Of a stretch of 64,000 nucleotides of DNA, positions 55,409 to 62,866 are shown one piece after another. The DNA is taken from NCBI RefSeq assembly GCF_024138165.1, contig NZ_CP100000.1, positions 1,674,001 through 1,738,000 on the forward strand, in the 5' to 3' direction. This DNA is from Halorussus vallis (lineage in GTDB: Archaea > Halobacteriota > Halobacteria > Halobacteriales > Haladaptataceae). Position 1 is the first letter of the stretch. Each line of letters starts with the position of its first letter. Below the pieces are notes generated by a model. It was not told the DNA's origin. It saw only the letters and a list, made by a program, of their open reading frames with translations, and did not search any database. The position numbers and the translations under genes are program-made.

Positions 55409-55481
55409 GGGCCGGTGGGGTAGCTTGGTATCCTTCGGCCTTCGGGTGGCCGTAACCGCAGTTCGAATCTGCGCCGGCCCA
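55409..55481 (+). tRNA. tRNA-Pro (CGG anticodon)
   Basis: 73 nt folding into a full cloverleaf. The acceptor stem is GGGCCGG with CCGGCCC, and the discriminator base A is at 55481. The D stem is GGGT/ATCC and the anticodon stem CGGCC/GGCCG, with loop TTCGGGT giving anticodon CGG (reads CCG, Pro). The T arm is GCAG-TTCGAAT-CTGC. No CCA is encoded. Its 3' end is the apparent boundary of the integrated element to the right. Confidence 0.95.
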
Positions 55482-55545
55482 CTGGGTATATATACCTTTT
55501 CCCGCATTCTTTGATAGTTAGCCACCGCTTCGGGAGGTGGCTCTG

Positions 55546-56704: not shown

Positions 56705-58105
56705 GTGCGAGAGTTCCGGATACACGTCTTCCGCCATCCGCGCGAAGACCCGGTGAAACAGCAGAAAGCGAACTTCCACATCTCTCCGCGTTGGCAAGGG
56801 ATGCGCGTTGAGAACAGCGACGGCGATGTGAGCGAGCTCTCCGTTCCTGACGATTTGACCGAAGGCATCAACGTGCGTGCCGTAGGGGCAAACATCGAGT
56901 TCGACCACTACCGATACCTGCTCCAGCGTGCTGCCTCAGCACACGACGTCAATCCGGGGTACTTCGCGAATCCTCACGAACACAGTAACGTCCAAGACGC
57001 CGAGCGCTACGTCCGACTTCACAAGGCTCGAAGCGGTCCGATTCACGCTCGCGATGGGCCGATTGCGAAGATGGCACATCTCCTGGAGAATGATCGCGAC
57101 GGCTACCGGAAGCTCGTACAGAACGAGCGCGACGAACACGGCCGCCACCTCCCGGGATACTACCACACAGTCACGCTCGGTCCGCGACGCACCGAGGCTG
57201 CGTTCCCATCGCACTCACTTCCGAAGGAAGTGAAGCACTACTACTCGCGAGAGGCCGCCGGGATGCCCGAGTCGGAAGCGCTTGCTCATCCGAAACTCGG
57301 AGCCTCGTATCAAGTGAGTCGATGGGACCAGAGACTCGGTGTCACCGACGACGATCTCGCCCAGCTGACTGAGGAACTCGAAGAGACTGTGTTGGCAGTC
57401 CTCGCCGAGGCAGGTCTCCCGGTGCGCCCGGGCGACCGTGACATGAAAGGCGAAATTGAGACCCGAGGACCGTACGTTCCCGACGCCTATTTCGAAGCGA
57501 GCGAGAGCAATCGCGACCGGAATCTCGTCTCACTCAATCTGACCAGAATCGAGCAGCGCCAAGAGAGTGTGGTCATCAAGCATCTCTCGGACGGGTTCTC
57601 TCCGGTCGAGTGGGAGTCACTTGAGAAACTGGTGACTGATGGCGGCACGGTTTCGCCCGCGGATATCGCCGACGACTACGGCCGACACGTTGACTCCGTT
57701 CGCCGGGCGCTCAAGCGTCTCCCCGACTTAATCGAACACGACTACGGATGCGTGAAGCTCCGGAGCGACTACATCGCCGAGTACGTTCACGAGGCAGTCG
57801 AACAGGCCCGAGACGCGACTCAGCGGGCGGTTGAAGCGACCGCGAAGGCAGCAGAAGCAGCGGAGCGTGGCGTCGACGAGACGACGAGTGCGTTCATTGC
57901 GTTCTGTGCGAGACACGGTATCGAAGTCGACGACCGTCACGAGGCGCGCCTCACCCTTCGGATGGGTGGAGTGCGTGACGCCCAACGACGAGTCCAGCAA
58001 GCGTACCGACTCTGGGTGAACGCCGGCAAGGACCCAGCACGGTTCCGAGAGGCGCAGCTCCATCTCGGTGAGCGAGGCTACGGGGTCGCCTGGCAGTTCC
58101 TGTAG
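56705..58105 (+). CDS. DUF7845-like element protein, main part (frame B)
   Basis: 466 residues from a GTG at 56705, the frame itself being open from 56690. It shows NFHISPRWQGMRVENSDG, HYYSREAAGMPESEALAHPK, a winged-helix-like part (VTDGGTVSPADIADDYGRHV, DSVRRALKRLPDLI) and an alanine-rich helix with a C-terminal RFREAQLHLGERGYGVAWQF. DUF7845-type proteins occur in haloarchaeal proviruses and integrated elements; the helix-turn-helix suggests DNA binding, perhaps in replication or regulation. It may be expressed with its N-terminal part (56469-56699) by frameshifting, or separately from the GTG. The family name is from memory. Confidence 0.65.
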   Translation: MREFRIHVFRHPREDPVKQQKANFHISPRWQGMRVENSDGDVSELSVPDDLTEGINVRAVGANIEFDHYRYLLQRAASAHDVNPGYFANPHEHSNVQDAERYVRLHKARSGPIHARDGPIAKMAHLLENDRDGYRKLVQNERDEHGRHLPGYYHTVTLGPRRTEAAFPSHSLPKEVKHYYSREAAGMPESEALAHPKLGASYQVSRWDQRLGVTDDDLAQLTEELEETVLAVLAEAGLPVRPGDRDMKGEIETRGPYVPDAYFEASESNRDRNLVSLNLTRIEQRQESVVIKHLSDGFSPVEWESLEKLVTDGGTVSPADIADDYGRHVDSVRRALKRLPDLIEHDYGCVKLRSDYIAEYVHEAVEQARDATQRAVEATAKAAEAAERGVDETTSAFIAFCARHGIEVDDRHEARLTLRMGGVRDAQRRVQQAYRLWVNAGKDPARFREAQLHLGERGYGVAWQFL

Positions 58106-58561
58106 CCGGCGACGGCTGAGAGGCATCACTATCGATTCCCGCCCTTTTCCGAAACCCCAGTTTGTCTAACTCCGATACCTATGCAACCCGATTTGTACTT
58201 CTCCGAGCGACCCGACGACGATCTCAACCCGTCGGCCACCGGAACTCGACCGGGGCGGTCGAGATTCCGGTTAGGGGTGTGGCTAAGGCCACAATTTCAA
58301 AACACCACCGCCGGCGGTTGGCGGCGTCGCTGCGACACTGCCCCGAAGGGGCGCGCGAAAATTTAGACCGGATGATCCAGCAGTACGGGCGCGCGCGTAG
58401 TAAGGAAACTGAAGTCAACCCCTCCCCCTCAGCCCTCGGCAACTATTTTATACTGAGTCACCGCTCTCAGGCGTGTTAGGGTCATTAATTTCTTGGACTT
58501 ACCAATTACAGCCATAATCATTATTATTGATTATGTAGTTGTGCTCTTGGAGTGGGAAACA
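58106..58561. other. Intergenic region before the murein-hydrolase cassette, with repeat R1
   Basis: 456 bp. A 61-codon frame from the ATG at 58181 to 58366 (MQPDLYFSERPDDDLNPSAT...) could be a small gene, with low confidence. The first repeat copy (R1) lies at 58384-58427. Just before the cassette, an AT-rich stretch with TAATCATTATTATTGATTA (58512-58530) and a palindromic AATCATTATTATTGATT is a likely promoter or operator. Confidence 0.4.
58384..58427 (+). repeat. Element repeat R1
   Basis: Imperfect GC palindrome at 58384-58399 ending GCGCGTA, with GTCAACCCC beginning exactly 30 bp after its first base (58414). The same 30-bp spacing occurs in R2 and R3. It borders the left side of the hydrolase cassette. 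Confidence 0.8.
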
Positions 58562-60349
58562 ATGCCAGACGAACACCCGTTAGTTCAATTTCAAGAGGGG
58601 GGAGAAGCTGCGATACTGAACTACGACGTTCCAGATTCTACATCCTATTCCATCAACTCGATCATTGAACTCGATTATCCAGAGAACTGCTTCAGTGAGT
58701 ACGCTAAACGGGTCCCTCCAGACACGTTAGAAACTGTGAAAGGGACTGAACCAGAGAAGCTGGCCGAAGACGTCAAAGACGGGTTAGAGAAAGGAGAAAT
58801 CAACCCAGCCCTGTTCAAAACAACATTCTCGAAAGCTGTCCCGAACGTCTTCTTTAAAGAAGCGATTCTACGGCCGAGTCGGTTACTTAATCCCAACGTT
58901 GTAGACAGGCCAGCTATACCAGATGGCGGTGATACTCAAACAATAGACGCGACAGATGATGTAGATGTTCGGCGGAAGCGACTCCTCAACGACTACGAGA
59001 CTCGCGATCATCTGTCGACAGACAGCCGCTTCTCTCGGCTGCGAGCCATTAGTCCAGAGATTATCGCGAACATGGCATTGAAGGGATATACGTTCACATG
59101 TGGGACGAACGCCTTTGGCGAGTACGAGCCAGCATTCATCCCAGAACCTGAGAAACCAAAACCCCAGTTAGCGCTCGTTGAGGAGTACCGACTCTCGAAT
59201 TTCTTCGGTGATTATGGTGCTGGCCGAACAGTGAAGACGCACTCCCTTTTTCCGGGAGAAGAATCGAAGATTTCGATTAAGACGTTCAAAAGCAATGAGC
59301 GAGAGCGACAAGAGACCTCAAGCATCCTTGAGTCACTCACTCGAGAGTCAGCAGAGGAGTTCGAGCGAACTCTCCAAGAAGAGCACTCTACTAAGGTAGC
59401 GAAGGACAAGAGCAACGAGTTCACTTGGAACTTAAGCCGTGAAGCTTCCGCTACTGTTCCGATACCGATTCCGCAAGCCAAAACGGTTGCTACAATCACC
59501 GATAAGATAACTGGCGCATTCGGAGGTACAAAAAAGGCGAAGTCATCGCGAGAACAGACGGCCAAAACCGTCAAATCAGCCGTCAACAAGCACGCCCTCA
59601 ATAAATCCTCCAAAAGGGACCTCAATGTAAATACCTCAACGACAGCCAAAGAGCAGGTAACCGAGGAGCAGTCGATTGAGCGGACAATTGAGAACATCAA
59701 CATGAGCCGGACACTGAACCTAGTCTTCCGGCAGATGAACCAAGAGTTCATCAGCGTCTATCATCTCGTCGATGCTCGAATCGCGTTCTGGAACGGCTAT
59801 CCCGATACCTATGAAGAAGTTCCCCTGCACAAGTTAGATAGCCTGTTGGATCGCGTCTTAGTAGATGGAGACGTCGAAGTGGAAGTCGACGGCGAAGTAC
59901 ATGCTCTAAATGTCCGAAGTGAAATCGACGACCAACTGAAGTCAGAACTCCGGCAAATCTACGACCATGTCGGAGAGATTCACGAGAACTTCATCGAAGA
60001 GGTGGAGCGTGGCGATCTTCGATACTGGCGGGTGAACCCCAACCTAATCGATCAATATCGAGAACGAGAAGTTGACGGCATCATCCTTTCAACCACAGAA
60101 ACGACGCTTCGCACGGACGGGGTTATCGTTGAAGCACTCTTAGGTCAGGGAGAGGCTCTTGATGAGTATTCTGAGCAGATGCAAGAAGAATCCGTCGAAG
60201 CAACTGAACAAAACAACGAGCTCTTGGACGCTCACGTACAGCGTGAAACCCTCGCTCGAACCATCGTCGACAAGAAGGATAAGGAGGCGGCGGAAATCTA
60301 TGAGATGGTGTTCCCACCAGAGGAGGATGAAGCGGGCGCGGAAGAATGA
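58562..60349 (+). CDS. Large uncharacterised partner protein of the murein-hydrolase cassette
   Basis: The 595-residue protein starts MPDEHPLVQFQEGGEAAILN; a frame extension to 58493 is rejected because the ATG at 58562 gives the polar, conserved-looking start. It has no signal peptide. A central region (residues about 203-245) reads VEEYRLSNFFGDYGAGRTVK and SLFPGEESKISIKTF. Then comes a long charged, heptad-like stretch (SSILESLTRESAEEFERTLQ), a hydrophobic patch (ATVPIPIPQAKTVATITDKI), RTLNLVFRQMNQEFISVYHL, and a C-terminal segment DGVIVEALLGQGEALDEYSE. No enzymatic motif is recognised. GC is low for this genome. Its stop overlaps the next gene by 4 bp. It might be a carrier, structural or pore-forming partner of the hydrolase; that is inference. 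Confidence 0.8.
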   Translation: MPDEHPLVQFQEGGEAAILNYDVPDSTSYSINSIIELDYPENCFSEYAKRVPPDTLETVKGTEPEKLAEDVKDGLEKGEINPALFKTTFSKAVPNVFFKEAILRPSRLLNPNVVDRPAIPDGGDTQTIDATDDVDVRRKRLLNDYETRDHLSTDSRFSRLRAISPEIIANMALKGYTFTCGTNAFGEYEPAFIPEPEKPKPQLALVEEYRLSNFFGDYGAGRTVKTHSLFPGEESKISIKTFKSNERERQETSSILESLTRESAEEFERTLQEEHSTKVAKDKSNEFTWNLSREASATVPIPIPQAKTVATITDKITGAFGGTKKAKSSREQTAKTVKSAVNKHALNKSSKRDLNVNTSTTAKEQVTEEQSIERTIENINMSRTLNLVFRQMNQEFISVYHLVDARIAFWNGYPDTYEEVPLHKLDSLLDRVLVDGDVEVEVDGEVHALNVRSEIDDQLKSELRQIYDHVGEIHENFIEEVERGDLRYWRVNPNLIDQYREREVDGIILSTTETTLRTDGVIVEALLGQGEALDEYSEQMQEESVEATEQNNELLDAHVQRETLARTIVDKKDKEAAEIYEMVFPPEEDEAGAEE

Positions 60350-61896
60350 CTGGCCCCCTCAGGAACCGCGAAGCGGTTACTCCCGATGATGTAGTCAGCA
60401 ACACAGACCGAGTTTTGTCAACCGATGCAGTCGTCGAGTTCTCACCTATGTTTCGGTCAGTATCGGGTACGCCCCAGCAATTTGTTATCTCTTACATACT
60501 GGGCGAGCAGAACACTGACCGATATCGAGTGGACAAGCAATTTCAGGCAGTCGTTGACGAACTGGTACGAATATTGACTGAGCCTCCGTTGGAAACCTCA
60601 GTAGCGGCTCCAGTTATTCAGGATGCAGACGAACGAAAAAGAAGTATCCTCTCGGACTCGCCGGCGTGGTTTCGAGTCGCACCAAATCCAGACGCATCGG
60701 ATGCATCAACGTTTTACGAACTTCCTCAGATGAGTTTGGTGCGAAAGTACTGGGAGGACGTCGATACCATAGCAGAACGAGTGGGCGTAGGTCCAGAATT
60801 GGTGAGGGCTGTCATGTATATAGAGACGACTCGGGGGTGGTACGACGAGATACCCAACTGGTTCGATGCAAACAAGTCAATTCTCCCAATGAACGTGCAT
60901 GTTGACTATTGGGATGACACGGGGATCACGCGAGAGTATTTCGAACAACCACATGTGAACATCCTCTTCGGTACGTATCTTCTACGGGAACTACTCGAAC
61001 GAGTCGAGAACCCGACCGTCGAAAAAGTTGGTACACTCTATAACAATCTAGCGGCCGAGAAAGTTTCGAACTACGGCGCACGAGTTGCCCGTCTCATCGG
61101 TACCCAGCCTTGGTACAGAACTACAAGGACGAGCGCTGCCGCTCAACCAGTATCACTTGCGCACGGAGCAGACATCTTGGGCGACAGCGTTGGGGTTAAT
61201 GGGAAGAATAATCCAGAGGATATCCGCGGGCTGAAAAACCGGTTCATTGAACTCGGGTTCGACTGGTTGGGGTCGAACTCGACGCTTGATGCCGCAACTC
61301 TTGATACGATTAAGCTGTTTCAATCCATTGTACGGGGGCAACGATCTGTCAGTGGTGATGGGCGAGTCGATGTCCCCGGGCCGACATACAATTGGGTGAT
61401 ATCATCCAAAGCCCCCCGCTGGCAGCGAATGCCAGCGGGGGCAATGGATGGGACGACAGGATTCTACAATTTCGAGCTCATGGAGGAGACCAACGAACAC
61501 TTCGACTACGGAACGAACTGGATGGCCGATACAATTCGAAGTGCAGGAGTGTACTACCGTGAAACCTATCTTCGAGTTCATCCTGATGCGGCTCTGCTCA
61601 CCATCAACGACGTAAGTTTGCCTAGAGGGGGGCCAGCGCCGCCCCATAACGGACATCAAACCGGACTAGATTGCGACATCCGTTTGCCACGAATCGATGG
61701 GACGGCACCAGGACAAACAACGCACGAACACGCGGAGTACGACCGTGAAACGACGCGAGGGCTCCTTCACGCTCTGACGGTGCAGCCTCTGGTTACGAGG
61801 ATTCTTTTCAATGACCCTGTCCTCGCTAGTGAAGGACTCTGTACTCCTCACGCTGGACATGATGATCACATCCATTTCGAGATTCGACCACCGTGA
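60346..61896 (+). CDS. Multidomain peptidoglycan hydrolase (lysozyme-like, PG-binding-like, MepA/M15-type peptidase)
   Basis: The 516-residue protein has three parts. Residues about 135-270 look like a lysozyme/transglycosylase fold: GPELVRAVMYIETTRGWYDE, with E160 as candidate acid, and LLRELLERVENPTVEKVGTL. Residues about 275-350 resemble a peptidoglycan-binding domain (SVGVNGKNNPEDIRGLKNRF, LFQSIVRGQRSVSGDGRVD). Residues about 395-516 match murein endopeptidase MepA/M15: LPRGGPAPPHNGHQTGLDCD with His437 and Asp444 as metal ligands, and GHDDHIHFEIRPP with His508 and His510. There is no signal peptide or membrane helix. Haloarchaea have no peptidoglycan, so bacteria are the plausible target. 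It is coupled by ATGA overlap to the 595-residue partner. Confidence 0.9.
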   Translation: MTGPLRNREAVTPDDVVSNTDRVLSTDAVVEFSPMFRSVSGTPQQFVISYILGEQNTDRYRVDKQFQAVVDELVRILTEPPLETSVAAPVIQDADERKRSILSDSPAWFRVAPNPDASDASTFYELPQMSLVRKYWEDVDTIAERVGVGPELVRAVMYIETTRGWYDEIPNWFDANKSILPMNVHVDYWDDTGITREYFEQPHVNILFGTYLLRELLERVENPTVEKVGTLYNNLAAEKVSNYGARVARLIGTQPWYRTTRTSAAAQPVSLAHGADILGDSVGVNGKNNPEDIRGLKNRFIELGFDWLGSNSTLDAATLDTIKLFQSIVRGQRSVSGDGRVDVPGPTYNWVISSKAPRWQRMPAGAMDGTTGFYNFELMEETNEHFDYGTNWMADTIRSAGVYYRETYLRVHPDAALLTINDVSLPRGGPAPPHNGHQTGLDCDIRLPRIDGTAPGQTTHEHAEYDRETTRGLLHALTVQPLVTRILFNDPVLASEGLCTPHAGHDDHIHFEIRPP

Positions 61897-61949
61897 ATGG
61901 CTTGCCCCATTCCACTCAAAATCTCTCGGCGAACTCAATTCCGACCGAT

Positions 61950-61995
61950 TACGCGCCCGCGCGTAGTTAAGGAAATAGAGTCAACCCCCCGCCCC
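61950..61995 (+). repeat. Element repeat R2
   Basis: Perfect palindrome TACGCGC-CC-GCGCGTA at 61950-61965, with GTCAACCCC at 61980, 30 bp from the first base. It lies 53 bp after the hydrolase gene. Confidence 0.82.
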
Positions 61996-62103
61996 ATCAC
62001 CAATTGTCAATAGGTAATACCACTGTCCGAAAATGGCAGTCGAGTCTAGGTCGATACTGCGCAGAATTGGCGGAACGCGAAGTACCGAAAAATCGCCACG
62101 GAG

Positions 62104-62150
62104 TACGCGCCCGCGCGTAGGCACGTAACGGAAGTCAACCCCCCGGGGGA
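62104..62150 (+). repeat. Element repeat R3
   Basis: The same palindrome TACGCGCCCGCGCGTA at 62104-62119, and GTCAACCCCCC at 62134, again 30 bp from the first base. R2 and R3 are 154 bp apart. The interval 61897-62237 contains only these two repeats and no gene. Confidence 0.82.
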
Positions 62151-62237: not shown

Positions 62238-62552
62238 TCAGTCCGCGATGGTGCGTTCGACAGTATCTGACGGTGACTCTGAAGCAGTAGTAGAAGGACG
62301 AGCGATGGTGAGTCGGCCGAAACAGTGATCGTGAGAACACAGCGAGAACCGGCGAGATTCAGCGGCTAACGCAAGCCGGACGCGCATGTAATCACCGAGA
62401 TTCCTCGACATCGCTCCGCCATCGGCTGCGGTCGCACATGCCGGAACCGGCGAATCCTCCGCGTACCGATGGATTGCGTAGGCACCGGTCGAGCGAGTTC
62501 GCAATCCGTACTCTGGGAGGTCTGCGAGCGCGACCGTGAACAGGTCGGTCAT
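62238..62552 (-). CDS. Element-encoded hypothetical protein paired with AbrB-like gene
   Basis: The 104-residue protein MTDLFTVALADLPEYGLRTR... has a pair of cysteines in SLCSHDHCFGRLT and an acidic tail. No domain recognised. Its start overlaps the stop of the AbrB-like gene by one base (TGATG), showing translational coupling. It may be a partner of the regulator, as in toxin-antitoxin style pairs, but there is no motif support for that. Confidence 0.55.
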   Translation of the reverse strand: MTDLFTVALADLPEYGLRTRSTGAYAIHRYAEDSPVPACATAADGGAMSRNLGDYMRVRLALAAESRRFSLCSHDHCFGRLTIARPSTTASESPSDTVERTIAD

Positions 62553-62866
62553 CAGTCGCCTTCCATGGAGCTGGCGGTCGCCTGATCGCCGAGAACATCG
62601 CGCTCACCCGGCGAGAGCTTACGCTCTCGCTCACGTTCGACGAGCGCTTCTTCTGAGGAGTTCGCCGTCCGGTTGTCGCCAACGTTGGGGATAGGTACCT
62701 TCAGGACACCTTCTTCGTGGTCGTAGGAGACGAAGACGTGATAGTCATCGGTGAGTTCGCCTCCGTCGACGAGGCCGTTGTGTTCGAGAATTGCCTTCGG
62801 AATGGTGATACCGGCGGTGAGATGGTCTTTGGTTCCACTGAGACGGCGGATTTTGACACGATGCAT
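62552..62866 (-). CDS. AbrB/SpoVT-like DNA-binding regulator
   Basis: The 104-residue protein reads MHRVKIRRLSGTKDHLTAGI, then TIPKAILEHNGLVDGGELTD and VFVSYDHEEGVLKVPIPNV, the swapped-hairpin AbrB pattern (beta strand, ITIPK..L, strand). Such proteins bind DNA as dimers, as transition-state regulators or antitoxins. The C-terminal 40 residues are acidic and disordered. It forms a two-gene unit with the downstream gene. Confidence 0.75.
   Translation of the reverse strand: MHRVKIRRLSGTKDHLTAGITIPKAILEHNGLVDGGELTDDYHVFVSYDHEEGVLKVPIPNVGDNRTANSSEEALVERERERKLSPGERDVLGDQATASSMEGD

Follow-up and report, generated by a model that had tools for sequence, protein, structure and literature searches.

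A carrier-like gene precedes a predicted peptidoglycan hydrolase in Halorussus vallis and unrelated, often toxin-like genes elsewhere

Introduction

Haloarchaea lack peptidoglycan, which raises the question of what a predicted bifunctional peptidoglycan hydrolase would act on when it is encoded by a haloarchaeon, and why its gene overlaps that of a protein from an unnamed family. The two genes, encoding P0002 (the hydrolase) and P0001 (its upstream partner), lie in a stretch of 64,000 nucleotides (nt) of Halorussus vallis DNA (contig NZ_CP100000.1, positions 1,674,001 to 1,738,000; hereafter the window), and a preliminary description made from the letters alone had read them as a murein-hydrolase cassette directed against bacteria. 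We consider it probable that P0001 is the carrier or docking half of a two-gene module resembling polymorphic toxins, and that P0002 is the wall-degrading effector of this particular copy. In such a module P0001 would be made together with whichever effector is encoded directly downstream, and would help that effector exit the cell or reach its target.

The gene downstream of P0001 varies between loci

The preliminary description anticipated a linked, conserved partner that would make the pair a system. Members of the P0001 family do keep a tightly linked next gene, but that gene varies by locus (Table 1). The downstream gene could be read in six loci, the copy in the cyanobacterium Leptolyngbya cf. 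ectocarpi being left out because its contig ends after the P0001 homologue, and in all six it is co-directional. No significant similarity was detected among the downstream genes, and three of the five other than P0002 encode a toxin-type domain (Ntox44, C-terminal OmpA) or motif (HEALH). Ntox44, C-terminal OmpA, and HExxH peptidases are all listed as features of polymorphic toxins (Zhang et al., 2012, PMC3482391). The P0001–P0002 pair itself, whose co-occurrence in other genomes had been expected, was found nowhere else; each half occurs apart, and the module of P0002 that joins a PG-binding-like segment to an M74 endopeptidase (the PG-binding/M74 module) is found elsewhere without P0001. A dedicated hydrolase pair was therefore rejected. 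Because a constant upstream gene is followed by variable, toxin-like partners, we describe the locus as a carrier with an exchangeable effector instead of a hydrolase cassette. The same first gene in front of unrelated, often toxin-like genes suggests an undescribed modular weapon.

Table 1. Gene following P0001 or its homologue in the six readable loci (aa, amino acids; ORF, open reading frame).
Locus	Spacing to next gene (nt)	Next gene
Halorussus vallis (host)	-4	predicted peptidoglycan hydrolase P0002
Haloarchaeon G267	-8	301-aa protein without recognisable domain
Haloarchaeon G392	+6	359-aa protein, OmpA domain at C-terminal end (E 5e-18)
Haloarchaeon G260	+2	249-aa protein with HEALH, a metalloprotease-like motif seen by eye
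Haloarchaeon G870	-4	87-aa ORF
Sinorhizobium meliloti pAK76	+33	Ntox44 protein (E 7e-18)

P0001 belongs to an unnamed family

P0001 gave no match above threshold in Pfam, NCBIfam, PHROGs, PADLOC, or the PDB. Among 391 class members besides the host, a profile built from two sequences recovered relatives in three, a five-sequence profile added a fourth haloarchaeon (G870) and a near-complete copy in the Leptolyngbya genome (E 3e-113), and tblastn located a relative on the S. meliloti plasmid pAK76 (E 2e-22). The family thus comprises the host plus four other haloarchaea, one cyanobacterium, and one Sinorhizobium plasmid; its haloarchaeal copies are 36–52% identical to one another over aligned parts and 35–40% identical to P0001. 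Viral contigs and phage records contained no relative. Weak profile matches in two further genomes (G107 and G653) were judged to be chance, and a 599-aa gene 5' of a PG-binding/M74 module in Nostoc (Nos_2) was rejected as unrelated. In a genome of the cyanobacterial phylum (G731, L044), a protein of about 1070 aa weakly matches the P0001 core (E 1e-9) and is followed by a co-directional gene; this protein is possibly a distant branch of the family.

Conservation within the family covers an N-terminal segment and a core. The core contains the motifs GxYGAGRTxKTxSLxPGE and ERxIENINxSRTLNxVFRQxNQ, and its helical stretches surround a Gly/Ser-rich amphipathic segment. The hydrophobic patch previously noted in P0001 proved weak, with a best 19-residue mean hydropathy of only 0.71, far under the level of a transmembrane helix. 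In four of seven homologues, though not in P0001 itself, the Gly/Ser-rich segment ranks with the windows of strongest beta-amphipathic character, which no more than hints at membrane insertion; more speculatively, P0001 may insert in membranes through this segment.

These features also bear on the idea that P0001 is itself a pore-forming toxin, acting in a binary weapon: P0001 would open up the outer membrane or S-layer, and the downstream enzyme would work beneath. The beta-amphipathic character of the segment in those four homologues, the predicted helices flanking it, and the lack of a hydrophobic helix in P0001, as in water-soluble pore formers, are in keeping with this role. We nevertheless hold it to be unlikely, given that the segment of P0001 itself falls outside the top beta-amphipathic windows and that P0001 matches no pore-former family.

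P0002 is predicted to combine two wall-degrading activities

Peptidase_M74 (PF03411) matches residues 416–458 of P0002 with a score of 26.1 bits (E 7.9e-6), above the Pfam cut-off of 25. Residues H434, H437, D444, H505, H508, and H510, which we take to fill the metal and active-site roles of MepA, are invariant across nine aligned sequences, and two more relatives from haloarchaea, G166 and G290, retain them; this upholds the MepA-type endopeptidase that the preliminary description had recognized from His437, Asp444, and His508/510. The lysozyme-like region proposed around E160 fared less clearly. The N-terminal domain shares 31% identity with a Photobacterium ORF (P0005), in which it stands alone and E160 is conserved, but no SLT/lysozyme Pfam family matches the domain in P0002, and its best PDB profile match, lytic transglycosylase C, is below significance (E 0.71). 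We therefore regard this domain as SLT-lysozyme-like, not proven. PG_binding_1 (PF01471) likewise matches neither P0002 nor anything else in the host genome, but it does match the same stretch in two homologues of the module (P0006 and one on viral contig L054), and the label PG-binding-like is fair. P0002 would act on the bacterial wall, its SLT-lysozyme-like domain cleaving glycan and its MepA-type zinc endopeptidase cutting at a second place, with the PG-binding-like segment sitting within the wall-degrading enzyme.

Over its C-terminal half, P0002 shares 43–55% identity with cyanobacterial proteins and with proteins from bacterial bins assigned to Bacillota and Terriglobia. A tree was considered as a pointer to the origin of the PG-binding/M74 module and resolved neither donor nor direction. 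The Photobacterium GJ3 ORF lies in a row with a LysM protein, a transposase, and a small membrane protein (L013:4799-8767, in the order LysM protein, transposase, SLT-like ORF, membrane protein), which might be a toxin-immunity locus.

The bacterial wall as the predicted substrate

Since the host group lacks peptidoglycan, the target of P0002 is most likely bacterial, and the company that its module keeps elsewhere agrees with this. On viral contig L054, the PG-binding/M74 module makes up an entire 256-aa protein that matches PHROG endolysins, is 41% identical to the module of P0002, and is immediately followed by a Pfam holin. In haloarchaea, fusions join the module to a Pfam N-acetylmuramidase (G166) or to a subtilase (G290). 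The bacterial wall proposed in the preliminary description is accordingly the best reading of what the predicted hydrolase attacks. Haloarchaea seem to have joined M74 to a glycan-cleaving domain on two occasions, using a different such domain each time. Bacteria-killing peptidoglycan hydrolases of haloarchaea have been described (PMC12352652).

The use of this module as a phage endolysin in L054 and the foreign composition of the H. vallis cassette are also compatible with P0002 being a lysin acquired from a virus or provirus of bacteria, the pair being a decaying passenger without function in the archaeon. We judge this quite improbable: both ORFs are intact with their 4-nt overlap, every catalytic residue of P0002 is retained, P0001 is conserved in other haloarchaea at the 35–40% identity given above, neither protein matches any phage record, and no holin was recognized beside the cassette. 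Release of P0002 to feed on the peptidoglycan of dead bacteria, instead of killing live ones, is an explanation to which we give little chance. Enzymology alone cannot tell feeding from killing, and no result favours feeding specifically; elsewhere the P0001 family precedes an OmpA-terminal protein and an Ntox44 toxin, neither of which would obviously serve nutrition.

The M74 endolysin of L054 stands in a row with the holin and a coiled-coil protein (L054:4962-7029), an arrangement that looks like a lysis cassette. In G290 (L049:8531-17574) and G166 (L048:7312-18001), the module ends fusion proteins of 920 and 1035 aa, each encoded by the last gene in a co-directional run of three large ones; in L049, neither of the two giant genes upstream has a Pfam match. 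These three-gene stretches are possibly another undescribed effector-carrier operon.

Export and the standing of the carrier model

Neither a hydrophobic N-terminal segment nor an RR was found in P0002, and P0001 matches no known secretion or trafficking domain in Pfam, NCBIfam, PHROGs, or PADLOC. A haloarchaeal contractile injection system could in principle deliver P0002, with P0001 as spike adaptor or cargo. Archaeal peptidoglycan hydrolases without a signal peptide are somewhat enriched in sheath-bearing genomes (P = 0.059; PMC12352652), and sheath genes are present in the P0001-bearing G870 and Leptolyngbya genomes. However, the contractile sheath (PF04984) is missing from the host genome, and of the four other haloarchaea with P0001 homologues three also lack it, which disfavours contractile injection as a general export route and makes this alternative very improbable. 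An 18-kb stretch of G290 encodes both the subtilase-M74 protein and an eCIS_core (PF13699) protein (L049:262-1581); a contractile sheath gene lies elsewhere in that genome. A bolder form of the carrier model, which we offer as a tentative and rather doubtful possibility, is that the P0001 family is an undescribed archaeal and bacterial delivery module that exports or injects the protein encoded directly downstream with no need of Sec, Tat, or contractile machines, and that one version of it serves haloarchaea to deliver a hydrolase with two activities against peptidoglycan to bacteria.

The domain assignments, the intact metal ligands, and the constant-upstream, variable-downstream pattern are supported by sequence comparison; physical interaction of P0001 with P0002, export, and antibacterial action are inferred. 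Several observations weigh against the carrier with exchangeable effector. Hydropathy shows no signal peptide or transmembrane helix in either protein, and AlphaFold gave no usable fold for P0001 alone or for P0002 with four relatives (mean predicted local distance difference test scores of 37.5 and 38.5, respectively). The swap pattern was read in six loci; the term effector is supported by domains in four of them, one of the four by motif alone, while the downstream ORF of G870 is just 87 aa and that of G267 has no recognisable domain. Tight co-directional spacing is common in prokaryotes. Finally, no immunity gene was recognized beside P0002 at this locus, although none would be needed because the host itself lacks the targeted wall. 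One class of polymorphic toxins is without immunity genes and is possibly aimed at distant organisms (Zhang et al., 2012, PMC3482391).

Relation to known systems

The closest parallels to P0002 are two Halogranum salarium enzymes, Woldo and Danwoldo (PMC12352652), which are likewise haloarchaeal, aimed at bacterial peptidoglycan, modular in combining catalytic and PG-binding parts, and patchily distributed. Those enzymes are secreted through Tat as single proteins and carry M23 or glucosaminidase domains along with PG_binding_1 repeats, whereas P0002 has no apparent signal peptide, has SLT-like and M74 domains, and comes with an overlapping partner gene. The survey that described them demanded Pfam catalytic and wall-binding domains within one protein (PMC12352652), and P0002 may have escaped it because it gives no PG_binding_1 match. 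P0002 shares the active-site pattern of bacterial MepA (peptidase M74), HxxHxTGxxxD and HxxHxH, but is archaeal, lacks an apparent signal peptide, and holds M74 within a PG-binding/M74 module fused to an SLT-like domain. The L054 endolysin has the same module, but it adjoins a holin and has neither a carrier nor an SLT-like domain. P0002 is a new member of the known archaeal wall hydrolases.

Polymorphic toxin systems resemble the P0001 loci in that one delivery part stays constant while the toxin parts, a C-terminal OmpA, Ntox44, and an HExxH-type protein among them, can be exchanged (PMC3482391). In the P0001 loci, by contrast, separate but coupled genes encode the constant and the variable part, and the constant part is absent from Pfam and NCBIfam and has no known trafficking domain. 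A P0001 carrier with swappable effectors is a variant of polymorphic toxin systems, and possibly a new delivery principle. The contractile injection systems of haloarchaea (archaeal type VI secretion system, PMC11566945) also serve haloarchaeal antagonism with toxin genes, but the one described kills archaea on contact, and the genome encoding P0001 and P0002 has no sheath.

Archaeal weapons against bacteria have been shown just recently, and those are single secreted enzymes. If the proposed model is true, a modular carrier would explain how archaeal hydrolases without signal peptides exit the cell, and archaeal and bacterial toxin pools would be linked through shared mobile parts. The P0001 core (alignment A6) would then provide a sequence handle for finding more archaeal and bacterial effectors.

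Genomic setting of the cassette

Both ORFs and the overlap claimed for them were confirmed, the stop codon of P0001 and the start of P0002 sharing the four nt ATGA (Table 2). A TTG start would lengthen the P0001 frame to 58493, while the alignment of relatives begins at the ATG. The lower GC content of the cassette and its bordering repeats were likewise borne out. GC content at third codon positions (GC3) is 0.54 in P0001 and 0.53 in P0002, compared with 0.80–0.93 in the CetZ, EamA, and Amidase genes of the window, and the cassette is bordered by three copies of a 55-nt unit, the core pattern of which occurs at just these three sites within the 5.05-Mb host genome. Relatives of P0001 and P0002 were found in none of 17 congeners and 41 further family and order members. 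A lone copy of the repeat in one congener (G011) was considered as an empty site and rejected, since the gene context there differs. The cassette is of horizontal character, as seen in its absence from the 17 congeners, low GC3, private border repeats, and patchy distribution.

Table 2. Features of the P0001–P0002 locus, in window positions.
Feature	Position	Strand	Description
55-nt border repeat, upstream copy	58371..58425	+	pattern ..GCGCGCGCGTAG..AGTCAACCCC..
P0001 gene	58562..60349	+	595 aa, ATG start; carrier-like protein of unnamed family
Conserved N-terminal segment of P0001	58562..58711	+	PLVQFQEGGEAAILNYDVPDSTSY...IELDYP...F; common to haloarchaeal and cyanobacterial homologues
Conserved P0001 core	59156..60328	+	residues about 199-589
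P0002 gene	60346..61896	+	516 aa; predicted bifunctional peptidoglycan hydrolase effector
SLT/lysozyme-like domain	60646..61119	+	residues about 101-258; putative catalytic E160
PG_binding_1-like region	61168..61416	+	residues about 275-357; basis, homologue matches and alignment
M74 (MepA-type) endopeptidase region	61417..61893	+	residues about 358-516; H434, H437, D444, H505, H508, H510
55-nt border repeat, downstream copy 1	61937..61991	+	
55-nt border repeat, downstream copy 2	62091..62145	+	

The suggestion that the cassette sits inside an integrated element is made plausible by its low GC and by a tRNA-Pro gene, but no attachment-site duplication of the tRNA-Pro 3' end (at least 14 nt) was found within the window. 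The tRNA-Pro gene (window 55409-55482) lies immediately left of the low-GC region. Directly 5' of the cassette is a gene for a DUF7845 protein with a helix-turn-helix segment (window 56705-58105), and to its right a small gene (window 62552-62866) has a sub-threshold MazE/AbrB-like match.
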